64,000 nt of DNA, from assembly GCA_001683735.1 (NCBI GenBank), contig LUGG01000024.1, positions 248,001 to 312,000 of the forward strand, in the 5' to 3' direction. The DNA is from Grifola frondosa. Taxonomy: Eukaryota; Basidiomycota; Agaricomycetes; Polyporales; Grifolaceae. How positions within the stretch are numbered: the stretch's first letter is position 1; the number at the start of each line of letters is the position of its first letter. This document shows positions 26,873-60,062 of the stretch, piece by piece. Under the pieces are notes generated by a model that saw only the letters and a program-made list of their open reading frames with translations, did no database searches and was not told where the DNA came from. Both the position numbers and the translations under genes were made by a program.

Positions 26873-26907
26873 CCCCCCCCCCCACCCCCCCCCCCCCCCC
26901 CCCCCCC
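26873..26907. repeat. Poly-C tract (C11-A-C23)
   Basis: Eleven C, one A and 23 C in a row form an extreme homopurine/homopyrimidine block. Its true length is probably unreliable in any sequencing method. Downstream the region is intergenic until SEC2. Confidence 0.95.
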
Positions 26908-34054: not shown

Positions 34055-36747
34055 CTATGTCAAGAAATCATCTTCCCGCACTAATCGAACGTCCAGCGGC
34101 ACCTGTGCCGTCATAAAGTCTCCGTGCGGCGGGCGGACCACGGGAACCTGCAGGCCGTTCATCTTCCAATAGATCTCCTTCTTGACTCCGTTTTCGTCGG
34201 CCGCAGACGGAAGAGAGAAGTGCATAGATGACAATAGGGTCGTGAGGATTTGTTCTAGTTCCAAGGGAGGAGATTAAAATGAAGATTGTGCACATAAGCA
34301 GAACAGAGGCAAGCGTACTCATTTCCATTTCGGCGAACTTGAATCCTCTAGGGAGAACAATCATCAGTATCAGCTCGAGAGCCGGTATTGAAACCACATA
34401 CATGCAAGCGCGGCCGCCTCCCAGGAATGTCATCCTAACACAAAATATCAGTTCTGTGTTGCAGAAGAAAACTATCACAACTCACATCGATGCATACACG
34501 CCCGGATACTTTACACCACCTTTATTCCCAGGCGTCCCTTCCACGACATGCGCAAGCTCCGCGTCCTCTCCTAGAATCGTATCCGCATCCTTGCCGAACC
34601 CGATGCGCTCCCCGGACGCACTGAGCCAGCGCTCCGGGCGCCACACCGACGCGTCCTCGCCCCACGCCTCCTTATTGTGGTTTGCGGCGAGGATCGACAT
34701 GATGACCGTTGTATTCTTGGGCACCGCAATTGCGGACACTTCCGCGCCCGACACCGATCGCACAGGGAACTGCAGAGGCAGAGTCGTGTCCTGCCGAGTC
34801 CTACGATGGTAGAAAAGCTCAGCGCAGGCCAGCAATATGAGTCGATGGTGCATACGTTCGGCTTAGCATGGATGTCGGGGATGCACGCGCAGCGTCTCGC
34901 GGAGGACGGCGTCGAGATACGGCAAGCCGACCAATATATCGTAGGGCAGGCTGACCTTCTTCCACTCTTCGCTTTCATCTGTGAACGTGATGCCCTGCGC
35001 AACGGCATAGTCGCGCTTCGCTTGGCGGATCTCGCGGCGGAGGCGCGCCTGCACCGCGGGCTCGCGCGCGAGGATGTACAGCATGCGACATATCGCGGTC
35101 GTGGTCGTCTCGAAGCCTGCAAGGATGAGCGTGCTATCGCGGGTCAGACAAATGTGATAAGGAGAAAACAAGAGACACACTTCATCTGCCCTAGCAATTC
35201 CTCGTCAGTCAGCCTGTCCGCCGAATCGGAGGACGCGTTCGCGCGCACTGCAGCATGTCAGCTCTCCGCACTACCATCATTGCGGACGCGACGCACACAT
35301 GATGCTCATGATGTCCTTGCCCTTCATCCGCGAGCCCAGATCGTCCTCGGACGTCGCCTCGCGGCCATGATGCATCGCCGCCCGCTTCTCAGCGAAGATG
35401 CGTCGGCTTCCGCGGTCCATGACCGCCACGATATCGCGCAGGTCACGCAGGGGCTTGATCGGTAGCCAGTCGACCATCTTGTTCCGCCAATAGAGCGAGA
35501 AGTTGCGCATCACCATGGGCACGAAGGGGCGCAGGAGGAGGATGCGGAGCGCCGCTGGCCTGTAGCAGGGACGACGGGCCAGTCATGAACGCGATGCGCA
35601 GGGAGCAAGAAGAGGCGACGTACGCTAGTCGGCGAATGGCATCGGCGTACTCGTTCGTTTTGCTTGGTTCCAGTGCGTGGAACGTGTATCCCATGCCGGC
35701 CTGGCAAATGTATTCTAGTGTGCCGCGGGCCATCCAGGGCAACAGGTCGATTTCCTTGGAGCCTGCAGCAGGATCCAAAGTGGTATTATCTCGATCCGAC
35801 ACCGTGCAGACGGTGCTCACCGCCGTCAGTTGGGAGTTGCTCCAGAAGGACGGAGAACAACTTGGTCGCAATAGGCTGGATCACGGGGAGCAGCTCTCGC
35901 ATGTTTGCGAGCGAAAAGACGGGGTTCAGCATTTTACGCTGTTTTCTGTGCTGTTCACCTAGTCGGAGCGGATTAACATTCAGCACGAGCAACTGAACAA
36001 TACAAACTATTCACCGAGGGTTGCGATGAGGCCCTCCCCAAAAATTAGTTTGTTCGTCCTGCAGATGAATGAGTGGGCTCGATCAACGTCGGTCATAAGG
36101 ACATGATGCACACATGAGGAACATCTCCGTTTCCTCGTATATGTGTTGCTCTTTGACGACAATATGGTGCAAGGCGCGGGATCCGAGACGTAGAGTTGTT
36201 CGTCCTGGTAGTAAGCCACTGTCAGTTTAAGTGACTCTGCGCTTCACAATAATCTTCTGGAACGAAGTGCACGATCTCGGGAGTGATAGCGCATGATAGC
36301 TGGATGTCGCTATAACACGGTAGCTGTACAAGCAACAGGAAGACAAGGGGATCTTCTCGCCCTCTACTCTTGCTTCGTGTCAGTGGCTATGAGGCCTTTC
36401 TGTCGGGATAAAGATGATCGGGCACATTGTGGCGCTGCATGTATGCAAATCAAAACTTGGATGAGGAAGTTGAACTCACCCGAGAAGTGCATGCACCCTG
36501 ATAACTCCACCATACTTTGCCACCAGCCGCAAGTTGTATTCCAAACCGTCCTGAAAGAGTCTGTGATAGTTTCCTACATAGCAATTGAATCCAGTTCCGT
36601 GAAGCACATGGCGGGTGTACCTTTGAGCCAGTGATCCTTGGCCGGTCCTGCGACGTCTGCGAGGGGAGACTTCGGCTTCGTCAACCGTTTCACTAACCTC
36701 CAGAGAAGCACGGCAACGAAAAACGACCCGAGCACTCGCAGAAACAT
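34055..36747 (-). CDS. Cytochrome P450 monooxygenase, ER-anchored
   Basis: Heme-thiolate monooxygenase; subfamily and substrate unknown. The ATG at 36747 opens an N-terminal membrane anchor MFLRVLGSFFVAVLLWRLVK followed by a Pro/basic stretch KRLTKPKSPLADVAGPAKDH. Later exons have EQHRKQRKMLNPVFSLANMR (C-helix WxxxR equivalent as RKxRKxLNPVF), GTLEYICQAGMGYTFHAL, LLLRPFVPMVMRNFSLYWRN, KGKDIMSIM, the I-helix AGFETTTTAICRMLYILARE, ExxR in LRETLRVHP, PERW in WRPERW, and heme motif FLGGGRAC with its Cys near 34430. It ends VPLDVRLVREDDFLT. Many short introns interrupt it; the junctions followed keep frame. It lies 2.2 kb from the UstYa-type gene, with the seven-helix gene between them, and could serve the same pathway, but nothing in the sequence proves that. 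Confidence 0.92.
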
Positions 36748-37345: not shown

Positions 37346-38614
37346 ATGGCGCTCTCGAACGACATTGCCGCACTGATAGGATTTGGATGCGAGGCGACCT
37401 TCTGGGTGTGTGTTTTGTGATGATTTACACGGCTGTCAGTCTACTAATCCTCCGCTTGCCCATATTCAATTTTGATGTCTCACCGAATTCCGTAATGTGA
37501 TCGGCTGCATGAAGGTGCCTACTGTATCCTCTTCATCGTGTCGATGATGCTCCTCGTGTGGCGCCGCCGCCGAACCCGTGACCTCAACATACCCATCGTA
37601 GTCGCGAATTGCGCTCTTTTTGCTTCTTGTACAGCACACTACGCGCTCGAGTTTAATCATTTCTACACCACTCTCGTGCGTATCCAATTCCATGTTTTGC
37701 GTTGGACAGTTGCATATTGAGTTGTCGTGTCATTTTTAGCAAGCGACAGGCGTTCCTAATTTCGCGAATGAAAACCACACATTATTTGGCGCAGACATTC
37801 TAATTTCTCTCAGCGACCTGTTGGGCGACATGGTCCTGCTATACCGCTGCTGGCTCGTGTGGGGCCAGAATTATTGGATAATCATCCTCCCGTCCCTCAC
37901 TGCCATAGCTGGTTTCGGTACGCATCCTTCCCGATCATCTTAACATGAACGCCTCGTCTAACAAACCTTCGCTCACAGCATGCTTGATGGAGGTCATGCA
38001 CCTCCTATTGAGCATCAACCCCACCGCCCCCGTTGCCCCCGCATCCATCGTGCCGCTCGGCATCGCAGGCTACGCGCTCCCGCTGTGCACGAACGTCATG
38101 ACTACGGCGCTCATCGCGGGCCGCATCTGGTGGTCAACGCGCACGCATGGCCAGCCAGTGCTGCGCAGCACGAAGCGTGCGACGAACGGCGCGATGGCCA
38201 TCGTCGTCGAGAGCGGCCTGCTCTACCTCGTCACGCAGCTCATCTTCGTCGTCCTCTTCGCGATCAAGCACCCCGCGCAGGCGATCGTCGCCGTCATCGC
38301 GGTGCAGATATACGTGCGCGCAACTGCCTTCTTGTGTCATTCTGCTGGGCTGATGTATTCCCACAGGGCATTGCGCCGACGCTGATATCATCCGCGTCGC
38401 GCTTGGGATCTCGTCGGAACAGACTATGAACGATGACTCCGTGAACTCGACGCACATCTCATGGAAACCCCGCATGTTCCCCCGCTCTACCGCAACCGAC
38501 TTTACCTCCATCGCGGCGACCGGATACACAACCGACAGCGGGCCTACGTTTCAAGCAGAGGCCGAATTGCTGCCAATGAAAACGCTGGAAAGCGACAAGG
38601 GGAGTGCCGTCTAG
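37346..38614 (+). CDS. Seven-helix-like membrane protein of an uncharacterised agaricomycete family
   Basis: Polytopic plasma-membrane-type protein; function unknown. Exon 1 reads MALSNDIAALIGFGCEATFW; next exons give AYCILFIVSMMLLVWRRRR, IPIVVANCALFASCTAHYAL, a segment with ADILISLSDLLGDMVLLYRC and WLVWGQNYWIIILPSLTAI, then ACLMEVMHLLLS, IAGYALPLCTNVMTTALIAG, RIWWSTRTHGQPVL and ESGLLYLVTQLIFVVLFAI. The pattern (TM, RR loop, RCWLVWG, GRIWW) matches the many seven-helix proteins seen in mushroom genomes, sometimes called receptor-like. The last exon starts GIAPTL and should continue LGISSEQTMNDDSVNSTHIS but changes frame near 38380-38385; one added base restores it. The join between exon 1 and exon 2 also does not keep frame as given. 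Confidence 0.7.
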
Positions 38615-38961: not shown

Positions 38962-39589
38962 CTATTGCTCGATGTCCGCCGCGGGATGGTCCAGCAGGTA
39001 CCTTCGCACCATCGTCCAATCCTTGCAGCGGTGTACGGACCCGAGCCCGCTCCCCGCATGCTCCCAGCGCCCGCCGATGAACACGGGGTTGTCCGCCTCG
39101 AGCGTCGTGTCCGCGTGGCACAGCACGACCTGGCGCATGTAGCGCAGGCAGTGCTGGATGTGCTGCGCCGCGCCCGTGCGGTTCACGACGTACCCGACGC
39201 GGATGACGTCGAGGCAATGCATCTGATGGATCATGGACAGCAGGAACGTGCGGTTGTTGGGCCCCAGGTCCGTGAAGCCGTCAGAGGGGAAGAGCGTGCC
39301 CCACTCGCCGTCGTCGTACAGCGAGAAGTGTGGCGCGCCGGACTCGAGCACGAGACCGACGGAGGGGAGCTTCAGCGGGAGCTGTGACGGGTAGTCGTCC
39401 CCGAGGTATGCTGTGCGAGAGCGTGAGTGCACCGTTAGCGGTGTGATGTGGGCGTGACGTACTGTATTCGCGTCCGATCGGAAGCAGTTGCTGCAAGAGC
39501 TTCACATTGTACCATGTAACGCTGATGTTCAGCGCGGTGAGGAGGGAAAAAATGAGAATGCATGGAAACAGCATTCCAGACGATGTCAT
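38962..39589 (-). CDS. UstYa-family (DUF3328) oxidase with N-terminal membrane anchor
   Basis: Members of this family install cyclising oxidations in fungal ribosomal peptides (UstYa/UstYb in ustiloxin, PhomYa-type proteins in phomopsin). Two exons: the first (start 39589) reads MTSSGMLFPCILIFSLLTAL, a signal-anchor helix, then LLPIGREY; an intron with donor GTACGT joins to TYLGDDYPSQLPLKLPSVGL. Both signature HxxHC motifs are present, IHQMHCLDVIR and QHIQHCLRYMRQVVLCHAD, about 35 residues apart, as in active members. It ends HRCKDWTMVRRYLLDHPAAD. Length of about 185 residues is at the short end for the family. Neighbours: the LPRPDP membrane protein starts 850 bp away on the other strand and the repeat precursor 1.45 kb away. 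Confidence 0.9.
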
Positions 39590-40435
39590 TGTGGATATCC
39601 AATTTTTGCGGACGATGAGCGAGAGGAAACAATATGGCACCCTGTCGAATTGCAAGTTAACAGGTGGGTAGCGGAGATGCCACTAATTTACCGACCTTTG
39701 CCGCGCCCGTCTAACTAGGTTGTGTCCCAACCACATCCGCATATAAGCGTATATAAGCCCCGAGAACTTTGTAAAGGATAAATGTCATACCTGCCGCTGT
39801 GAGCGTTGCAGACCCCTTCCATTGCATCCATTCCCGATAACGGTCTTGTCTTTTATGTTACTCTGAGGATGATCGGAGCGCCCAGCTAAGGCGCAATTCC
39901 GTCAGAAGTTCCTTTCTATGCGAGCATGAGGTACCGCTCTGGGCGGTCGTCCTTGGATTCATTACTTGCATGGGATTCAGAACCATGGTGTCCCTGAGGG
40001 TATCAAATTCTGGTATCAGCGACATCGTTCCTACTTGACATGAATCACAACGGCTCCAATAGTACCTTGACTTTCATACTCACATTGACACCAATTGCTG
40101 TCGTCGAAATCCAGTTAAATTAGTATAAATCGCCTCCGCATCACCTCATGGCTGTGGCCTTCGGGCTTCCATCATAGAAGATACTTGCGCTATCGAGTCG
40201 AGCCGGTATTGTTCTCAGCCTGGTCCACAATAAGTGGAAGATTGCACAGCAACGCAGTACTCGTGATCATGCGCCGGGCATTCTATCGAACCTTCCTTCT
40301 CCCAACTTATATGTACCCGCAAATTCGCTAGTGCTTTATCCTGTCCGCCCGCATTCATCGGAGCAAGGTAGGTCTTCCTTTGATGACTAGCTGACACTCA
40401 GCGCTGAACAGACCCGGTGTGGGCCAGCTATTCCC
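39590..40435. promoter_or_regulatory. Divergent promoter between UstYa-type gene and small membrane protein
   Basis: About 850 bp without a gene. TATA-like elements: GCATATAAGCGTATATAAGC near 39741-39760 and AGTATAAAT near 40121. No binding site can be named. Confidence 0.35.
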
Positions 40436-40732
40436 ATGTCAGACTACGCCCCACTCAGCCAAGAGGAGGACTACGATAAAGCATCGAGTCCGTCCTCCGA
40501 GAGCATCGAGTCCGCGCCCGCGCCCGCCGCCACGTGGCACGCTCTGAACAAGACGCTAATATGGGGGGCGGTTGTGATGGTACTCCTCGCGGTTAATATG
40601 TTCTGCCTTGCGATCACAACACGACAAGTCAGAGTGGTGTTCCAAACACTGCAGACGCACTTGGACTTTGTGGAAACCAGGGCCTTGCCAAGGCCTGATC
40701 CATTGGATGGCATGGAGCAGCTTCTCAGATAG
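40436..40732 (+). CDS. Small single-pass membrane protein with ALPRPDPLDGM tail
   Basis: A 98-residue protein in one exon. It starts MSDYAPLSQEEDYDKASSPS, an acidic cytosolic-type head with the PLxxEE pattern often seen at the start of UstYa-family proteins. One hydrophobic helix follows (TLIWGAVVMVLLAVNMFCLA), then HLDFVETRALPRPDPLDGM and a short EQLLR end. From memory, an LPRPDP-like motif after a membrane helix recurs in short agaricomycete membrane proteins and near the N-terminus of some UstYa homologues; this could not be checked. The HxxHC motifs are absent, so it cannot be the enzyme alone. It could be a partner subunit, a remnant of a second UstYa gene, or an unrelated small membrane protein. 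Confidence 0.6.
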   Translation: MSDYAPLSQEEDYDKASSPSSESIESAPAPAATWHALNKTLIWGAVVMVLLAVNMFCLAITTRQVRVVFQTLQTHLDFVETRALPRPDPLDGMEQLLR

Positions 40733-40990
40733 ACTGATGAGGGGTGCGACTGGCGTTGGCTGTTGTCGGAGGTGACTGTTGGAAGCGTACATGGCTTACT
40801 CGTTTTGGCTGTATCCGGAATCGCATTGAAATAACTTGGCTTCCATATGATCATCAAAACAGGTGCACATGGTTGCATCAGAATTCGCGAACGTCAATCT
40901 TGTGTAATCCAAAGACCGGGCGGCGCGAAAACTCACTGTCTCAGTAAGGGCAGTCCCCAGTTATCGTCCTATCCTCGGATTGCACCATCG

Positions 40991-40997
40991 TATAAGA
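40991..40997 (+). promoter_or_regulatory. TATA-like box of repeat precursor gene
   Basis: TATAAGA lies 45 bp before the ATG at 41042, which would give a very short 5' UTR, common for strongly expressed fungal secreted-protein genes. Confidence 0.4.
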
Positions 40998-41041
40998 AGT
41001 ACTAGCGAGGTTAGCTCCGCTTCTCAGACCACAGCCATACA

Positions 41042-41844
41042 ATGCGTACTTCACTGTTCGTCTCCGCTCTCTTGGCTTTCTCTGTCGCAGCTGCGCCTAT
41101 TGAGCTTACTGGTAAGTACATACTTGCAACATGTGTCGGAGAATTGTGGCTGATTCGACTACGGTATTCAGCTCGACGACCTGAGGATGGTGCACTCATC
41201 AACAACAACGTCCACCAGAAGATAAACGGTTAGCTCTGGTGACTGTCCCCATGAACGTCGCTCACCAATTCATGCAGGTCGTAACCCGTCCGATGGCGCG
41301 CTCATTAATAATGACATTCACCAGAAGATACATGGTCAGCGCCCTGCCCCGCTTGACTGTTGCATCCACTAATCCTGCATCTGAGCAGAGCGTGCGCCAG
41401 AAGATGGTGCCCTCATACATGATAACGTCCACCAGAAGATCAGTGGTCAGTTGGCAGCGCATCCGGTTCCGACCGACGTATTGACCGCGCATTCATGCAG
41501 AACGCGCAACTGGACCCGGCAAGCTCATTTTACACAACGTGCACCAGAAGATTGGTAGTGAGGCTTCAGCAGCTATTCCATTTATAAGTAGAACTTACTA
41601 GTCTCCCCTCCCGCAGAGCGTGCGCCCGAAGACGGAGCGCTCATCACGCATAATGTGCACCAGACAATACATGGTTTGTCACTGCCGTCTTCCCCAACAC
41701 TAGTAGCTCACACCTCTTGTAGAGCGGGCACCAGAAGATGGTGCGCTAATTAACAATAATGTTCACCAGAAGATCAAAGGTCAGTAATGACACGCCTCCT
41801 GCTGACAGCACCTCACATTGAGCAACGTAGATGATTCTGAATGA
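41042..41844 (+). CDS. Secreted repeat protein, candidate RiPP precursor with one repeat per exon
   Basis: A 140-residue protein in eight exons. Exon 1 (41042-41111) gives a signal peptide, MRTSLFVSALLAFSVAAAPI. Six repeat exons follow: 41172-41228, 41278-41334, 41389-41445, 41501-41554, 41617-41673 and 41723-41779. Five are 57 nt and one is 54 nt, all in phase 1, so each adds one 19- or 18-residue unit. The consensus is ERAPEDGALIxxNVHQKIx; HQ and the closing I are invariant, while the two or three residues after LI and the last residue vary (NNN, NND, HDN, LHN, THN, NNN). Exon 8 (41831-41844) gives DDSE and stop. Unlike known dikaritin precursors (UstA, GigA, PhomA) there are no KR sites between units; only the first unit has RR, others carry a single Arg (ER or GR). 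No Tyr, Phe or Trp occurs in the repeats. Confidence 0.8.
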
Positions 41845-42322
41845 AGTCGGGAGCTTGGTGGAGCTGCGCTGATCTGTCCGCCGCCTGTCTAGGCACGGGT
41901 ATAGTCTTCTTGAGCATCTTGATTATGGCAATATGTTGGGTGCACGTCGTTTTTGCTGTTAACATCAGAAATTGCATGTCATATGTCGTTTTGATAAAAT
42001 CTGAGTCTGCTGGGACATGCCAGGGACATCCGCTGTAAGTGTCCCAGCGCTATTGCAGAAGCTGTCAACATACCTTTGGAACTTTCATTTGTGGATTTGA
42101 TGATTCCAGTCGACGAGAAGACATAGATGGCGAAAGTGGCTGGAGCTCGATTCATCGCAACAACGTGGTCATTGGGCTTCAGCGAATGTCACTTGCACGG
42201 ACCGTGATTTTTGACGCACCTCAGTCGAGCAAAGAAAGGCCCTTAGTACACAACATACATAATTGGGATATTATATCTGTGCAAGTCCGAATAGGAATAT
42301 ATTACCAAGAAGTCCCATACAG
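41845..42322. other. Intergenic, no supported gene
   Basis: Two plus-strand open frames of 65 and 95 codons occur (41841, 42039), without domain or splice support. This is the convergent gap between the precursor and the Cys-rich membrane protein gene. Confidence 0.4.
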
Positions 42323-44006
42323 CTAAGGCTCATAAGGAGGTAGTGTTCCCAAGACAGAGCCATTGGCAATGGACATAGCTCTTTCTTCACCCCGGAAACC
42401 CTGGGAATCACTTTGTGGGGAATCGATGCTACGGGGTACGACCCAGAATGAGGATGTCCCAGCTACACTACTCGATGGTTGCAAAGCGGAATCTGGTACT
42501 AAGAAACGGGTTGTTTCGTTTGCATTCTTCTCTGTCATGACAACCGCGCGTTCCTGTTCTGGCAAGAGGGCAGATTAACCTCGCGGTTCGTAAGGCGGCA
42601 CGGCACAGGAAGTCGTGACTCACCTGGGGGGAAGGGAATGACGGTGGGCGGTTCATCCCTCGTCCCGTAGTAGAAGTCGGTGCTTTCGAGGGACTGACTC
42701 TTCGAATTCCTCCGTAATAGAAGAATAGAAATCAAAACAATGATGAGAAGTCCTAGTCCACCACCAACTGCGCCACCCACAATAGCACCCAGGTTGGATG
42801 TGGACTTCTGGGGCGAGGTGGTGGAGCTGGCCGAAGACGTCGAAGTCACTGTCGCATCCAATGGGATGGGCAATGACGACGATGATGATGACGACCCAGA
42901 CGAAGACGACCCAGACGAAGACGTCGACGTCGACGAAGACGTTGTTGAAGAGGAAGATGTGGTGGTTGAATTTTGGCCCGGACAAAACCCAAATGTGTGG
43001 TTGTTGTTGGCCGCCTGGTCTGCCTCTGCGGCTTCCTTGGAATAGACACTGGAGGCATCAGTTAGAGAACATGAGATATGTGGAGTCTAAGGACATACTA
43101 GAACCTATAGAGAATAGCTATTTAACATAAAGAAACTGCAATAGTAGGAAGACTACTCACCACGATCCATCAGACCAAAAGAGATTATAGACGAAATTGG
43201 CGATGTGCATGTTCTCGTTACAAACCGCGCTGAGAACGCTCGTTGGAAGGCTAAAAAAATCTTGTAAGTACAGCGATATAGCTGAGAATGTGCTGCAAAT
43301 CAGACTGCTTACGATGAATTCGTGTTTGGGCTACACATCGTGCCATCACTCCTAGTGAGATACATTTGATATGCACCAACGCCTGCATGCGTTGTTGGCG
43401 ATATGAAAACTTTGAAGATCGCACACGTACCAGCATCAATCCCGATAGCATTCCCAGGTTGTGTATCCAACTGACAACTGTACCACAGGATTTGTGAATG
43501 CATGTTCAGTCCACGAGAAATGTGCAAATGTACATACTTCATGCAGAGCATACTGAGCGCCCAAGATACCGAGTTGCAACAGCACTCCACTGTCAGGTGC
43601 ATGCAATCATGAGCGTTAGGAGGCTCAATGGATAGATCTAATGCTCACTCTGCTGATCGTCGCAATTGTCTCCGGGGGTATTTGTTCTCATAGTCGGAAC
43701 CTCATCTGAAACCCGAACAAAAACAATATCAGAGAGGTACGAAACATGTAGAACAGAATCCACATACAATCGCGGTTACAAATTTGGCGCAGTCGTTGAT
43801 ACGTTATACCTGATCCAAAAATTTGTTGACAAGTGCAGAGTATCACAGCTGCCAAAGAAAAACTCACAAGGTGACTCTCCCGCAATGCTCACATACCAGT
43901 CCAATTGCGTACTCGCGCAAGTGGTGTTGCCAGTGCCCGCAGTCCCTGAGATCAGAAAAGACAGTAGTGCTGCTACGTACGACCACCGTCGCAGTAGCCC
44001 GTTCAT
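42323..44006 (-). CDS. Secreted Cys-rich ectodomain with single membrane helix, hypothetical
   Basis: Type I membrane protein. The start at 44006, MNGLLRRWSYVAALLSFLIS, is a signal peptide; the ectodomain begins NTTCASTQLDWYVSIAGESP, then exons with QRLRQICN, ECCCNSVSWALSMLCM, CQLDTQPGNAIGIDAGT, AYQMYLTRSDGTMCSPNTNS and WFCPGQN. A Ser/Thr-rich stalk follows and a membrane helix, GAIVGGAVGGGLGLLIIVLI, with a short cytosolic tail ending GSVLGTLPPYEP. The CCC-WALSMLC arrangement and the stalk plus helix recur in a common uncharacterised agaricomycete family; the Gly-rich helix start (VGGAVGGG) resembles Mid2-like sensors. Role unknown; a cell-surface sensor or adhesin is possible. Several exon borders are approximate. 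An acidic-coding run of GAC/GAT triplets (about 42870-42950) on plus encodes the Ser-rich stalk on minus. Confidence 0.65.
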
Positions 44007-44351
44007 CCTCGTCAGTGGTCAGATAGACAGGTTCGTAGAAAGGAGGGGATGGAGACGGAGAACAGGAAGGAAGGAAACGGCGCACGCGTGCTAGAGACTA
44101 TTGTTCGAACTAACCCAGGAACAGATCACTCCTTTGACATGGACTGATCACATTGTAGTGATGGGGTAATTTGCAATAAACACCGCCCATCTCATTTTCT
44201 CCTCGTGGTCGGATATTGGATGACTTTCCGTAAGGATCTACGACTCTACTCGAACGTCCGTAGATTCCATCAGCCGAGATGCCGAGGGCAACCAAGCCCC
44301 GCTGATGCAAAATCACCGTTTCTAAAGCCTTGGCCTGCAAAGGGGGTCGGG

Positions 44352-45818: not shown

Positions 45819-46287
45819 TGATACGACAGCCTCAGATATGCAAATCGAATCATTTTCACATTTCGAACAGCTGACGATCGCCCAGGCACTCTTCCAGTAG
45901 GATCGTACCTGTGATTACATTGTTGCAGGTCACTTGCACCATATTCCCCAGCTTTCTTGCAACACGCGATTAACCGAACATCAACTATCAATGATTCCAC
46001 TACTCCGTACACCCCAAATTCATGTGATATGTCATTCTTATATTCAAAATCACCTCATGGCAATGTGCGACACATCAAGACACTTGTGACCCAATTGTTC
46101 GGCGTCCTACATGCATCTACCTGGCAGATCACACATGTCAAACTTGATCCCAGTCTTTTCAACTCTTACCCAGCCTCAGATCATTTCCATAACTGATCTA
46201 GCTATGCCACACAACTCCACATGTCAATTCTACATCTCCACTATTGTTTGCGGCACATTCCGGACAGTACTACCGATGCGACACAAC
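45819..46287 (+). repeat. Diverged extra copy of the element A LTR
   Basis: It starts TGATACGACAGCCTCAGATA and follows the whole 46307-46772 LTR block by block (TCGCATTTCGAAC-like, GGATCG, CATTGTTGCAGGTCA, CCTCATGGC, CCAATTGTTCGG, CTTGATCCCAGTC), with many C/T and G/A differences. It is probably an older solo LTR or part of a tandem element. Confidence 0.65.
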
Positions 46288-46306
46288 AGATGCCCCAGAA
46301 GACCGC

Positions 46307-46772
46307 TGATATGATGGCCCTAACTACGCAGATCAAATCGTTTTCGCATTTCGAACCTCTGACGATCATCCAGGAGCTACACTCTATTTCAATAGGATCG
46401 CACCTGCGATTACATCATCGCAGGTCATCTGAACAATAACTCTACGCCTCGTTGCGATGCGCAGCAAGCCGAGCATCACCTACCGATACTTCACATACTC
46501 AATGTTCACGTGATACATCATATTCGAATTCAAATTCACCTCATGGCGACGTGCGACGTGTCAAAAACACTTGCGATCCAATTGTTCGGTGTCCTACATG
46601 CGTATACCTGGCGGATCACACACGTCGAACTTGATCCCAGTCCTTTCGGCTCTTACCCAGTCTCTGATTACTTCCATAACTGATTTAGCTATGCCACGTG
46701 ACTCCACATGTCAATGCGACGTCGCGATTATTGTCTATGGCGCATCCCGGACCATACTACCGGTGCGACACG
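46307..46772 (+). repeat. 5' LTR (start) of Ty3/gypsy element A
   Basis: Begins TGATATGATGGCCCTAACTA and is near-identical to 55571-56037 in the same orientation. The two diverge at 46772 because the downstream copy is cut by a later insertion; the true LTR probably continues right of 46772. Differences seen are scattered transitions. Confidence 0.75.
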
Positions 46773-50420: not shown

Positions 50421-50516
50421 AACCCATGACCAAAATTTTACAGCGAACTTGAGGATTTGATTTACGATCAAGGAGAGTTGGCTCTAGTTTTGGACTATGA
50501 TACCCAGTTGGCGCGT

Positions 50517-52709
50517 TGTCACGCACCAAACGGGGTTGGTACCTGGACAGGGCCAAAATAACCATCTTTGGCAACCAAGTCAACCGAGTGCCGTAATATG
50601 CACAGCACACGAAGGTCACCATCGGGATCGAGTTTAGACATCATCAATCATGTCAAATCTCCACCCAATCCCACCCAATCGACGCATGCCATGGTGCCCC
50701 ATGGTAATTGATCCTCGGTTCCCCATCCTATTATACGACACACTCGCCACCGGATTCGACCTCATGCCACTGTCCGGATTCGTGCACCTCACAGATCGAT
50801 CCGGAATTACGTTCACGGGCCATATCGACCACATCATCCAGTACCAGGAAACACGAATATTCCTCGCCCTTTCTCACATCGATGGCACCTGCACCATTGG
50901 TTTCACAGTACGATACGAGTACGTTCAGCATTCGCTCGTCTCCTATGCAATGACCTGGTGGCGATATTCCCTATACGCTGTCAGTCCGGATAACGAGATG
51001 ACGAAGCCGGAATCCATGATTTACCCTCTTCACCCGCTTGTAAACGACGACAACCATCGTTAAATCAAGTAGGATGGGATGGGAAAGCATGGAGGGTCAT
51101 GAGGAAAAGGAGTGCGGGAAAGAATCAGGTCAGGAAAGTCAGGAGACAAGGAGTTGGACACAGCGGACATCGCGGAAACAGGAAGAAGAAGATCAGGTTA
51201 GCAAATTCTGGAAGGGACTGGAAGAAAGGCAGAGTCCTGGGAAAGTCTGTACAGCCTTTGAAAAGAGAAGCATGGCAATGGTCACAGGGATACACAGCCA
51301 CAAGCCACCTGAGATGATGTAGAACAGCCTTCAGGAGACTCACAGCCCTGGAACCATAGACCATGTGCTTCTCAAAGTGGCAGACTAACTCCCCCAGATT
51401 TGTAAGGGCCCTACCCTAGATTTGTGATTGCCTTACTAAGGCTGTGCAAATTTATAAGGTAGAGGACCTCCATTAGTCAGGGAATATCTCAAATGGATGA
51501 CAAAGTCTTCAAGGCTATGTACTCTGTGAGAGAAAGGTCCTTGAAATGGAGAAAAGGGCACCTTGGGTTTGTAATCCCCTGCCCCAGATTTGTAAGAGCC
51601 TTACTAAAGCTATGCAAATCTGAGGGCCGGGTGACCTAGGAGAGCTCTGATTGGAGGAAGTCAGAGAGGCAGTGCAGGGAGATGCAGCTGGAACATTCAG
51701 GAAAACACTATGGAAAGGACTGGAAGATTCTAGCACAGTAGTTACCATGGTTTCTTGTGCTTGGAGCCTCCCGGAAAGTGCTGGAACAGTCTGAGAAGAA
51801 GAGTCCGGGGAGAATTCTGGGCCCTCTCAAAAGGTATATAAAGAGCTCCTTTCTTGCCTTAGAGAGGGCAATAGAATTGGATCCAACAGAACTGGATCAG
51901 AGAACTGGATCCACCAGCAGCAGCCAGAAACACAGTCTCCACTGAAATTTGGATCACCCTCCAGATTCCCCCCAGACTCAGCAGACTAGATCACTTGACT
52001 GAGGTATCACAGGGATATCTCATGTCATCACAGGTGTGCACATAGGTGTACACACTCAGCCACACAGACACAGCACTTCCCTAACAAGGAGGACCTCCAA
52101 GGCGGCAAGGATACCATTCTGTATCCCCACCACCCCACTTCACTCCATACCAAATCACACCAGATTTCTACTCTCAAAGTCTCACAGCCAGAAGCAGTCA
52201 TAGTCAGTTGACTTGCTTACCACAGTCCGGACATCACTTCAGGAAACCCCACAACAGAGGTGGGCAAGGTTGAAGTCTTGGTCCCCAGTTTCCAGGTCAC
52301 AGCAGTGCAGCAACCCCATACAGAGGTGGGCAAGGTTGACTGTTGATAGGACAGGAAAGAGAAGTCTTCCTCGGAGGGAGCATCAGCAGAAGAACAGGAG
52401 ACATATCGAGGAGAGGTAGAAGTGACAAACGTACCGGGCAAGTCATCATCGTATCATCGTTAAACATTCACTTGGGATCGTACCTACCTTCGTGATTGTG
52501 ATAACACCCCCAACGGATTCGGCCAGGCCTATAACTGGGAAAGCAGGAAAAACCCGTCAAGCTTGGTGCAGTATAAAATTGATTTCATACCTCGATTCCC
52601 TTCGCGTATATTTCGCCCTGCCACAGATAGATTTTTTTCTATTTTGGTTTGGTGATTATCGAGATCGTTTTATACAGTGGTTACTATCTCACACCACATA
52701 CTCACGACA
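50517..52709 (+). repeat. Solo LTR of gypsy family B nested in element A
   Basis: A 2.19-kb unit beginning TGTCACGCACCAAACG and ending CTCACGACA, near-identical to the reverse complement of 56038-58227. It is flanked by GCGCG on both sides (50511-50515 and 52710-52714; one extra T on the left), which fits a 5-bp target duplication. No family-B coding sequence adjoins it, hence solo LTR. A promoter TATATAAAG lies at 51835-51843. An open frame of 137 codons (50650-51063) lies in its first part. Confidence 0.85.
51835..51843 (+). promoter_or_regulatory. TATA box in family B LTR
   Basis: GGTATATAAAGAGCTCC is kept in both LTR copies (the other at 56903-56911 on minus) and probably marks the U3/R border. 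Confidence 0.6.
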
Positions 52710-55570: not shown

Positions 55571-56037
55571 TGATACGATGGCCCTAACTACACAGATCAA
55601 ATCGTTTTCGCATTTCGAACCTCTGATGATCACCCAGGAGCTACACTCTATTTCAATAGGATCGCACCTGCGATTACGTCATCGCAGGTCATCTGAACAA
55701 TAACTCTACGCCTCGTTGCGATGCGCAGCAAGCCGAGCATCACCTACCGATACTTCACATACTCAATGTTCACGTGATACATCATATTCGAATTCAAATT
55801 CACCTCATGGCGACGTGCGACGTGTCAAAAACACTTGCGATCCAATTGTTCGGTGTCCTACATGCGTATACCTGGCGGATCACACACGTCGAACTTGATC
55901 CCAGTCCTTTCGGCTCTTACCCAGTCTCTGATTACTTCCATAACTGATTTAGCTATGCCACGTGACTCCACACGTCAATGCGACATCGCGATTATTGTCT
56001 ATGGCGCATCCCGGACCGTACTACCGGTGCGACACGT
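55571..56037 (+). repeat. 3' LTR of element A, truncated by insertion of element B
   Basis: Matches 46307-46772 from TGATACGATGGCCC to GGTGCGACACGT, then stops exactly where the family B LTR begins (TGTCGTGAG at 56038). Confidence 0.8.
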
Positions 56038-58227
56038 TGTCGTGAGTATGTGGTGTGAGATAGTAACCACTGTATAAAACGATCTCGATAATCACCAGAC
56101 CAAAATAGAAAAAAATCTATCTGTGGCAGGGCGAAATATACGCGAAGGGAATCGAGGTATGAAATCAATTTTATACTGCACCAAGCTTGACGGGTTTTTC
56201 CTGCTTTCCCAGTTATAGGCCTGGCCGAATCCGTTGGGGGTGTTATCACAATCACGAAGGTAGGTACGATCCCAAGTGAATGTTTAACGATGATACGATG
56301 ATGACTTGCCCGGTACGTTTGTCACTTCTACCTCTCCTCGATATGTCTCCTGTTCTTCTGCTGATGCTCCCTCCGAGGAAGACTTCTCTTTCCCTGTCCT
56401 ATCAACAGTCAACCTTGCCCACCTCTGTATGGGGTTGCTGCACTGCTGTGACCTGGAAACTGGGGACCAAGACTTCAACCTTGCCCACCTCTGTTGTGGG
56501 GTTTCCTGAAGTGATGTCCGGACTGTGGTAAGCAAGTCAACTGACTATGACTGCTTCTGGCTGTGAGACTTTGAGAGTAGAAATCTGGTGTGATTTGGTA
56601 TGGAGTGAAGTGGGGTGGTGGGGATACAGAATGGTATCCTTGCCGCCTTGGAGGTCCTCCTTGTTAGGGAAGTGCTGTGTCTGTGTGGCTGAGTGTGTAC
56701 ACCTATGTGCACACCTGTGATGACGTGAGATATCCCTGTGATACCTCAGTCAAGTGATCTAGTCTGCTGAGTCTGGGGGGAATCTGGAGGGTGATCCAAA
56801 TTCCAGTGGAGACTGTGTTTCTGGCTGCTGCTGGTGGATCCAGTTCTGATTCCAGTTCTTTGGATCCAATTCTATTGCCCTCTCTAAGGCAAGAAAGGAG
56901 CTCTTTATATACCTTTTGAGAGGGCCCAGAATTCTCCCCGGACTCTTCTTCTCAGACTGTTCCAGCACTTTCCGGGAGGCTCCAAGCACAAGAAACCATG
57001 GTAACTACTGTGCTAGAATCTTCCAGTCCTTTCCAAAGTGTTTTCCTGAATGTTCCAGCTGCATCTCCCTGCACTGCCTCTCTGACTTCCTCCAATCAGA
57101 GCTCTCCTAGGTCACCCGGCCCTCAGATTTGCATAGCTTTAGTAAGGCTCTTACAAATCTGGGGCAGGGGATTACAAACCCAAGGTGCCCTTTTCTCCAT
57201 TTCAAGGACCTTTCTCTCACAGAGTACATAGCCTTGAAGACTTTGTCATCCATTTGAGATATTCCCTGACTAATGGAGGTCCTCTACCTTATAAATTTGC
57301 ACAGCCTTAGTAAGGCAATCACAAATCTAGGGTAGGGCCCTTACAAATCTGGGGGAGTTAGTCTGCCACTTTGAGAAGCACATGGTCTATGGTTCCAGGG
57401 CTGTGAGTCTCCTGAAGGCTGTTCTACATCACTCAGGTGGCTTTGGCTGTGTATCCCTGTGACCATTGCCATGCTTCTCTTTTCAAAGGCTGTACAGACT
57501 TTCCCAGGACTCTGCCTTTCTTCCAGTCCCTTCCAGAATTTGCTAACTGATCTTCTTCTTCCTGTTTCCGCGATGTCCTGCTGTGTCCAACTCCTTGTCT
57601 CCTGACTTTCCTGCACCTGATTCTTTCCCGCACTCCTTTTCCTCATGACCCTCCATGCTTTCCCATCCCATCCTACTTGATTTAACGATGGTTGTCGTCG
57701 TTTACAAGCGGGTGAAGAGGGTAAATCATGGATTCCGGCTTCGTCATCTCGTTATCCGGACTGACAGCGTATAGGGAATATCGCCACCAGGTCATTGCAT
57801 AGGAGACGAGCGAATGCTGAACGTACTCGTATCGTACTGCGAAACCAATGGTGCAGGTGCCGTCGATGTGAGAAAGGGCGAGGAATATTCGTGTTTCCTG
57901 GTACTGGATGATGTGGTCGATATGGCCCGTGAACGTAATTCCGGATCGATCTGTGAGGTGCACGAATCCGGACAGTGGCATGAGGTCGAATCCGGTGGCG
58001 AGTGTGTCGTATAATAGGATGGGGAACCGAGGATCGATTAATGGGGCACCATGGCATGCGTCGATTGGGTGGGATTGGGTGGAGATTTGACATGATTGAT
58101 GATGTCTAAACTCGATCCCGATGGTGGCCTTCGTGTGCTGTGCATATTACGGCACTCGGTTGACTTGGTTGCCAAAGATGGTTATTTTTGGCCCTGTCCA
58201 GGTACCAACCACGTTTGGTGCGTGACA
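56038..58227 (-). repeat. 3' LTR of gypsy element B
   Basis: On minus it starts TGTCACGCACCAAACG (58227), right after the purine-rich GTGGGGCGGA, and ends CTCACGACA (56038). It is the inverted partner of the solo LTR at 50517-52709, with only occasional differences noticed, several of them CG to TG. The 137-codon LTR frame seen in the other copy is shifted here near 58030-58045 by a 2-bp difference. Confidence 0.85.
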
Positions 58228-58377: not shown

Positions 58378-59965
58378 CTATTCCTGTCTGGTCTTCTTCG
58401 TCTGGTGAGTCCTTTCCTGCTCCAGATCTTCAAGATTATCCATCGTCGGATGGTATGCTAGAAGTCTGAATGCAGCGACTCCTTCTCGAACTACATCTCC
58501 ATTGAGTTCCTTGAGAATATACGATCCTCCAGCCGTTTGCCTAACCACTTCAAATGGTCCTAGGTATCGCGGCTTGTGTTTTCGATTCATCTCTCGTTCT
58601 ATTTGAGAATTACGCTGCAGGACTAGGTCACCTGGCTGGTAGCTTTCTCTGAACAAGCGATGAGCGAACCGATGCTCAAACTGCTCTTTTGAGGCTAACC
58701 GAGACTTGGTGAGAGCTTGTCTGCTCTGGCCACATCCTCCGGTCGCCTTTCCAACTGTCTGATGCGTAATGCTAGGAGTTCTTCTGGAGGCATGTTCTTG
58801 CGGAACCCTTCCACCATGAAGGTAGCTTCTCGCAAGTCCATAGGAAATACTGGGTGCACTCCATGCAGAAGGTAATAAGGGCTATATCCTGTGGCTCGCC
58901 TAACTGTGACTCGATCGGCAAACAGTGCATGCGGTAGCAGTTCTGGCCAACGAGAGATATTGCCTTGGCATGCTTTCACCAGGGCTTCGCGAATAATGAA
59001 ATGTCCACGCTCCACAACTCCATTGGCTGATGAGTTATATGCAGAGATTCGCACCTGGGGAATGTTATAGCGTCTGGCCAATCTCTCGAATGCTCCCTTT
59101 GTCTCGGATCCATTATCCGTGGTTACTTGACCAACTGCTCCGTATCGGCAAATAATCTGTTCCCAAAAGAATCTGGCACTGCCTCTGAGGATGTACTGTT
59201 TAGCGCTCTTCCTTCTGTGACTCCTGACAAATCATCTCGACATGCAACAATGCAGGTTTTTCTTCCTACAGTTGGCATGAACATGATGTCCAGGTACACT
59301 TTCGTGAACAAGGTTGCAGGCGCCGAGATCCGGGGTGGTATGGCTACTTTCTTGACACTCCGAATCTGGCATTCCCTGCAAGCCTGGACATACTGCCGCA
59401 CATCGGATCGATAGAAGGGCCAGAAGAATCGGAGCTTGACTGTTTCGAAGGTAGAAAACTCTCCTCGATGCCCCAATTCATCATGTGCTTGCTTCAAAAT
59501 CGATAACCTCTCTTTCGCTTCCAACACTACTCTGGTCGGGATTCCATTCTCTTGTTTTCGGAAGAGAAGGTCATCCTTCAGAAAGTAGTGTCGACATTTT
59601 CGAAGGAAGCGTGTTCTTGCTGCTGTTTTGTCAAACTCGGGCAAATCAAAGGTTTCTAAGAAATCCCTGATCTGGCGGAGTCGGACGTCCTGGCTGGTTG
59701 TGGTCGATATGAACACCTGATTCTGTGGTTCGTCTTCTTCGGCATATGGTCCATAAATCTGTCTCCTGTTGCTGCTGGTTGGAAACCCTAAGAATAAGGC
59801 TATGTTGTCCAACCACTCGTCGTCTTCTTCGTCTATCTCTTCTCCTTCTCCGAGAGCTCGCCTAGACAGGGCATCTGGTCCCTGATGCTTGGCTGCTGGT
59901 ACATGTATCAGTTTGAAACTGAACAGTAGGATCCCCTGGATCCACCGATTGATTGTGTAGGTTTG
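58378..59965 (-). pseudogene. Gypsy element B pol fragment: RNase H end, integrase, chromo-like end
   Basis: Reading on minus from 59965: INRWIQGILLFSFKLIHVPA and GPDALSRR close the RNase H domain. The H2C2 zinc module follows (HDELGHRGEFSTFETVKLRF, FFWPFYRSDVRQYVQACREC), then the integrase core with LDIMFMPTVGRKTC, VTTDNGSETKG and NSSANGVVERGHF (D, D and E of the catalytic triad present). The C-terminal end has GDLVLQRNSQIEREMNRKHK, PRYLGPFEVVRQ. Two one-base losses break the frame (about 59175 in the core, about 58717 after RRPEDVARAD). Reverse transcriptase and gag are absent: the element stops abruptly at about 59965. Confidence 0.88.
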
Positions 59966-60062
59966 ATGATGATGATGAGTACTTGTGTGGGTGCAAAATA
60001 TGGGAGGGTCTGGGCTTTTTTAGTTTAGTGTCTTTGTGGACTCGTCTGGAATGAGAAATCCA
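59966..60062. other. Junction sequence beyond the truncated gypsy B
   Basis: ATGATGATGATGAG next to the break is a small ATG-triplet run; sequence beyond it is unrelated to pol. Confidence 0.4.

Follow-up and report, generated by a model that had tools for sequence, protein, structure and literature searches.

Gene content and setting of the locus

The window analysed here is a stretch of 64,000 nucleotides from Grifola frondosa (maitake), covering positions 248001-312000 of contig C21 (599,788 bp) in a genome of 39 Mb. Three genes are packed into 2.9 kb of this window: one of the UstYa oxidase family (PF11807/DUF3328), one for a small membrane protein, and one encoding six repeats. This three-gene layout, which had been claimed in a sequence-only reading of the same DNA, was confirmed by motifs, an open reading frame (ORF), and an exon model. 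Database proteins from the contig of the locus are named Grifola frondosa A0H81_12664, A0H81_12652, and A0H81_12651. The features are located as follows, in window coordinates.

38962..39589, minus strand: UstYa/DUF3328 oxidase gene, splice model with exons 39463-39589 and 38962-39410 and a 52-nt intron (39411-39462)
40041..44218, no strand: duplicated block, blastn pieces 87-95% identical; the UstYa gene lies outside the block
40436..40732, plus strand: ORF of a small protein of 98 aa with one hydrophobic segment (by eye), ending in ...LPRPDPLDGMEQLLR
41042..41111, plus strand: repeat gene, exon 1, signal-peptide-like start MRTSLFVSALLAFSVAAAPIELT, judged by eye
41172..41228, plus strand: exon 2, repeat 1, 57 nt, (A)RRPEDGALINNNVHQKIN
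41278..41334, plus strand: exon 3, repeat 2, 57 nt, (G)RNPSDGALINNDIHQKIH
41389..41445, plus strand: exon 4, repeat 3, 57 nt, (E)RAPEDGALIHDNVHQKIS
41501..41554, plus strand: exon 5, repeat 4, 54 nt, (E)RATGPGKLILHNVHQKI
41617..41673, plus strand: exon 6, repeat 5, 57 nt, (E)RAPEDGALITHNVHQTIH
41723..41779, plus strand: exon 7, repeat 6, 57 nt, (E)RAPEDGALINNNVHQKIK
41831..41844, plus strand: exon 8, C-terminal DDSE, then stop

The UstYa gene is intact, and its two-exon model encodes 191 aa with one N-terminal hydrophobic helix. Its product matches the PF11807 profile at 58.8 bits, compared to a curated cut-off of 25, and contains HQMHC and HIQHC, the two HxxHC motifs of the copper site, in agreement with the earlier description of a UstYa-family gene carrying both motifs. 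In the related enzyme CctR, the HxxHC motif has been reported to form a copper site with two coppers per monomer, and motif mutants are inactive (PMC12435403). The NCBI model, A0H81_12651, has 227 aa owing to a longer N-terminus and starts upstream near 39827. An AlphaFold2 model built from 20 alignment rows reached a mean pLDDT of 53.9, too poor for a fold search, and no solved structure matched the UstYa profile at E values up to 0.01.

The small protein was recovered on the plus strand as the 98-aa ORF that had been described as a small membrane protein, and its NCBI model, A0H81_12652, is longer at the N-terminus, with 152 aa in all. It matches no Pfam family, and the database search, which gave four candidates, returned only A0H81_12652 itself as a homolog and none outside Grifola. 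A role as an oxidase partner is a guess. The proposal that it is a cut-down UstYa was rejected as a sequence claim, its probability in a comparison of profiles being 0.4%. As for other LPRPDP proteins, the 39 Mb hold one CTN-coded match, the window's own copy (TTG start) falling outside this pattern, and no small membrane protein was seen by eye beside that match.

Several other elements were observed in the window. A cytochrome P450 match (PF00067) at 34866-35204 on the minus strand, ~4 kb to the left of the UstYa gene, may belong to the same cluster, and between the two lies a membrane-protein ORF at 37909-38382 (+) whose DUF6534 match, at 16.4 bits, stays below the cut-off of 28.2. A Ser-rich ORF with one membrane segment at 42538-43086 (-) adjoins the repeat gene, and its stretch is also inside the duplicated block. 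Farther away are a run of ~35 C at 26873-26907 (94% matches) and, at 45834-46530, two diverged copies of one stretch, spaced ~490 bp from each other, which the repeat scan showed to be similar at the protein level on both strands. Two 2.2-kb inverted repeats (50514-52709 and 56037-58227) have more copies on the contig that are 97-99.5% identical, and these are probably recent mobile elements; an ORF with an integrase zinc-binding (H2C2) domain lies near them at 59126-60019.

Exon structure and evolution of the repeat gene

The gene at 41042-41844 (+) consists of eight exons and encodes a 140-aa protein with six repeats, and there is little doubt that it is a real spliced gene. One repeat of 18-19 residues corresponds to exactly one exon, and exons 2-7 all start in phase 1 and keep the reading frame. 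This layout of one repeat per exon, absent from the earlier description, is the surprising part of the locus. A literature search over titles and abstract starts recognised no paper on fungal precursors with one core per exon, and two papers (PMC7329392, PMC6339444) mention neither "exon" nor "intron" in their main texts. The seven introns are GT-AG introns of 49-62 nt, and in all seven a branch-like YTNAY motif begins 16-23 nt upstream of the intron end, a raw count without a chance control. Retention of intron 2, 3, 5, or 7 would introduce an in-frame stop, and that of intron 4 or 6 a frame shift. Retention of intron 1 causes neither, and because the frame is left open, this is the least certain splice. 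The N-terminal MRTSLFVSALLAFSVAAA resembles a signal peptide by eye. A self-similarity scan of 14 residues flags, on the plus strand, all of the six repeats but one, and its block-shuffle control gave no matches (one shuffle per strand, 12 strands). The repeats are thus not a product of chance.

With regard to composition, the RR of repeat 1 is the sole dibasic pair in the whole repeat protein, and residues 19-140 are free of F, W, Y, and C. Both features had been anticipated, as the lack of KR between repeats and of aromatic residues within them, and they are borne out, histidine aside. An Arg is found at residue 2 of every repeat, followed by RP, NP, AP, AT, AP, and AP, that is, by X-Pro in five of six. 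Residues R2, G7, L9, I10, H15, Q16, and I18 are identical in all six repeats, R2 being encoded by four different codons.

Compared among themselves, the repeats show a pooled pS of 0.79, close to saturation, and a pN of 0.21, and the mismatch at codon positions 1, 2, and 3 is 0.22, 0.19, and 0.58, respectively. Because the repeats differ mostly at synonymous sites, the array looks old, with a protein sequence that appears to have been kept by selection, rather than the result of a recent tandem expansion. The introns between repeats have lost nearly all mutual similarity; of 21 intron pairs of the gene compared with 200 shuffles, 19 gave z below 2 and the others 3.1 and 2.5. The constraint extends over most of the unit, with LI, NV, and the final I among the positions concerned, and this would also be expected of a protein that stays intact as a secreted repeat protein at the surface or in the wall, for example as a beta-solenoid or an amyloid-like stack of LIxxNVHQ units. 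The even size of the units and the absence of dibasic sites between them point in the same direction, but the array has six units only and no cysteine, and every unit has a single Arg at the same position, five of the six with a Pro two residues further along. We regard an intact repeat protein as unlikely. The repeat protein is instead probably cut into a small family of peptides.

A second copy of the block is located on the same contig at 323.7-338.9 kb, 11.7-26.9 kb past the end of the window, and is split by inserted DNA. It holds the repeat gene and, in two fragments, the small protein gene, without a UstYa gene. The broken repeat gene lies 46 kb from the window gene; the eight exons of the two copies are 94% identical and the introns 90%. 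It could be supposed that the gene is decaying or not expressed, a relic whose duplicate is breaking down, since the copy has single-base losses (one in exon 1 and two in exon 6) in addition to the insertions that split the block. Nevertheless, the window copy keeps all splice sites and an open frame, and changes between the copies, over the five indel-free repeats, are more frequent at synonymous sites (pS 0.13) than at nonsynonymous ones (pN 0.05), so that a relic appears very improbable. For the small protein, the comparison between copies gave a pS of 0.18 and a pN of 0.08, with 5 of the 98 codons skipped.

Relatives of the repeat gene were sought in 5.8 billion proteins, and none was found outside Grifola among annotated entries of 0.55 to 1.75 times the query length sharing exact 5-mers. 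The sole match at E <= 1 was a garbled 89-aa model of the broken second copy; the intact window gene seems unannotated, because it had no database match of its own. The missing outside relatives weigh little against a link with the UstYa gene, because such a search depends on annotated proteins, and mini-exons readily escape annotation, as happened here. Across the Grifola genome, the DNA pattern N-[VI]-H-Q-x-I gave 11 matches, accounted for by the window gene, the broken copy, and one on contig C3, and a protein search with the repeat likewise gave 11, accounted for by the window gene, the broken copy, and one on contig C2 (E 1.8).

Relation between the UstYa gene and the repeat gene

The UstYa protein has 70 database matches at E <= 1e-5, the gene itself and 69 others. 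Of these relatives, 68, from other Agaricomycetes and from metagenomes, show 46-75% identity over the aligned part, and one at 37% may belong to another group. The best relatives outside Grifola are those of Taiwanofungus (75%), Infundibulicybe (71%), and Gelatoporia (69%), and further ones come from Leucogyrophana, Heliocybe, Auriscalpium, boletes, and others, many of the 70 being metagenome proteins without a species. The putative orthologs in the first three genera are AcW1_002871, BD779DRAFT_228318, and CERSUDRAFT_111944, respectively. Two HxxHC motifs are present in 67 of the 70, and an alignment of 20 of them shows no variation at the motif His and Cys. Since other UstYa stretches of the Grifola genome share 28-35% identity with the locus UstYa, as compared to 46-75% for the outside relatives, its sequence looks like that of a member of one widespread ortholog group. 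A further UstYa match in the genome, at C6:883631-884017, crosses two stop codons (TGA and TAG) and represents an intron or a broken gene.

The proximity of the two genes has to be weighed with some care, as it was the ground on which the locus was chosen post hoc. No repeat array of at least three units was detected around seven other Grifola UstYa loci by a self-similarity scan of 20-50-kb stretches; the stretches on contigs C5, C6, and C7 gave no scan matches, and that at 523-573 kb of C21 gave pairs only, one of which recurs at another place on that contig. UstYa in Grifola therefore does not generally predict a repeat array. The UstYa is widespread in Agaricomycetes, and the repeat is known in Grifola only, as far as annotated proteins were searched. 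Because the second copy, itself decayed, is without UstYa and the seven other loci are without arrays, the functional link comes down to one adjacency. Of the proposal that the locus makes a family of modified peptides, the precursor anatomy beside a UstYa gene is well supported, and the link to the UstYa is this single neighbourhood.

The same observations can be read as describing a precursor of unmodified linear signalling peptides, similar to the alpha-pheromone-like KEPs, beside which the UstYa gene of another pathway lies by chance. The X-Pro that follows the invariant Arg in all repeats but one fits with this, as basidiomycete KEPs with STE13 motifs were reported to yield linear peptides (PMC9769878), and so does the second copy without UstYa. 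A DUF3328 gene has been found near only 103 of 1680 basidiomycete KEPs (PMC7329392), a DUF3328 enzyme is also described as acting on a non-ribosomal peptide (PMC12435403), and the P450 match to the left could mark another pathway. On the other hand, the starts of the UstYa and repeat genes are only 1.45 kb apart, nearer still in the longer NCBI model, in a genome of 39 Mb with at least eight UstYa places, and a DUF3328 gene does lie near 17 of the 76 pheromone-like KEPs of basidiomycetes (PMC7329392). Unmodified linear peptides are thus an explanation that we would not expect to hold but that deserves serious weight.

DUF3328 genes in general are enriched beside repeat precursors, occurring with 22% of 7878 KEPs (PMC7329392). 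Among the 1758 KEPs near DUF3328 genes, 65.6% of the repeats contain Tyr, and two abundant repeat types have His-His motifs instead of Tyr (PMC7329392). The lack of aromatics in the Grifola repeats is therefore a weak objection to modification, because a third of such repeats are without Tyr and the DUF3328 enzyme CctR is reported to hydroxylate a C(sp3)-H carbon (PMC12435403). It is conceivable, at somewhat less than an even chance, that the peptides are modified by the locus UstYa.

Putative processing and comparison with known systems

We favour, tentatively and with confidence a little short of half, the reading that the gene at 41042-41844 is a secreted multi-core peptide precursor with single-Arg cutting and possible oxidation by UstYa. 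The repeat protein would enter the secretory pathway, where a kexin-like protease would cleave each unit close to its start, on the C-terminal side of the invariant Arg. A STE13-like dipeptidyl peptidase could then trim X-Pro and a carboxypeptidase could take the terminal Arg, leaving ~16-residue peptides of type EDGALIxxNVHQKIxE. Finally, the membrane-bound UstYa might oxidise, hydroxylate, or crosslink a side chain within NVHQKI, the conserved half of the unit, the candidate targets being His, Lys, and Ile of the V/I-H-Q-K/T-I part. Among the predicted Arg-cut peptides, computed average masses are, for example, 1804.9 for EDGALIHDNVHQKISE and 1973.1 for APEDGALIHDNVHQKISE. The Grifola genome has a kexin P-domain match and a match to DPP IV, the family to which STE13 belongs. 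Three agaricomycete KEPs expressed in P. pastoris gave products consistent with single-Arg cutting, and XA/XP dipeptides were trimmed from one of them (PMC9769878).

In a wider sense, the locus could represent a fungal precursor class with one symmetrical mini-exon per core, core release by cutting at a single Arg, and an Agaricomycete-wide UstYa as partner, although such a class is at present a doubtful proposition. Genes of this class would escape surveys based on proteins, since exons of 57 nt are left out by gene callers and the search for KEPs presupposes dibasic sites; a precursor with cores in mini-exons and without such sites would go unnoticed in the standard searches. If the class is real, it would help to explain why few basidiomycete precursors have been found beside DUF3328 genes (103/1680, PMC7329392). 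Mushrooms can carry many UstYa genes, with 16 reported in Pleurotus ostreatus (PMC8893723). Exon skipping could also change the peptide mixture, since the six repeat exons are symmetrical and skipping any of them keeps the frame.

The dikaritin pathways of ascomycetes (ustiloxin, phomopsin, asperipin-2a, and victorin) are similar to this locus in having a UstYa with two HxxHC motifs beside a multi-core precursor with a signal-peptide-like start. The six repeats correspond to the several near-identical cores of dikaritin precursors. Unlike these pathways, the Grifola locus is from a basidiomycete, and its cores are on separate exons, without dibasic sites and without Tyr, Phe, or Trp. Dikaritin precursors are described as having dibasic KEX2 sites (KR, RR, or KK) between cores (PMC9769878), and such sites between units, which characterise both dikaritin precursors and KEPs, are absent from the repeat protein. 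A dikaritin cluster has been defined by five genes, including a tyrosinase, a methyltransferase, several DUF3328 genes, and a peptidase or transporter, and clusters without some of the five were later accepted (PMC12048977). The window has one UstYa gene, and none of tyrosinase, methyltransferase, peptidase, or transporter was found by Pfam at E up to 0.1 among 17 neighbouring ORFs of the window and the three locus genes. The designation of a dikaritin-like RiPP locus in the sequence-only reading holds for the way of working, a multi-core precursor beside UstYa, but not for membership, given the absence of dibasic sites.

The KEPs of Agaricomycetes share with the Grifola precursor a signal-peptide-like start, short repeated units, and X-Pro of the STE13 type after a basic residue. 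The Grifola precursor differs from them in having a single Arg rather than KR, RR, or KK and one unit per exon, and its UstYa gene is adjacent, whereas DUF3328 is nearby in 6.1% of basidiomycete KEPs (PMC7329392). CctR of the cyclochlorotine pathway belongs to the same enzyme family as the locus UstYa and has the same copper-binding motif, but its substrate is a non-ribosomal cyclic peptide, and a ribosomal substrate for the locus UstYa is only inferred. Schistosome microexon genes encode secreted proteins from many short symmetrical exons that are not known to be repeats of one core. They are like the repeat gene in these exons and unlike it in belonging to animals, a likeness drawn by description. 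Collectively, the repeat gene works like a dikaritin or KEP precursor but departs from both in its dibasic sites.
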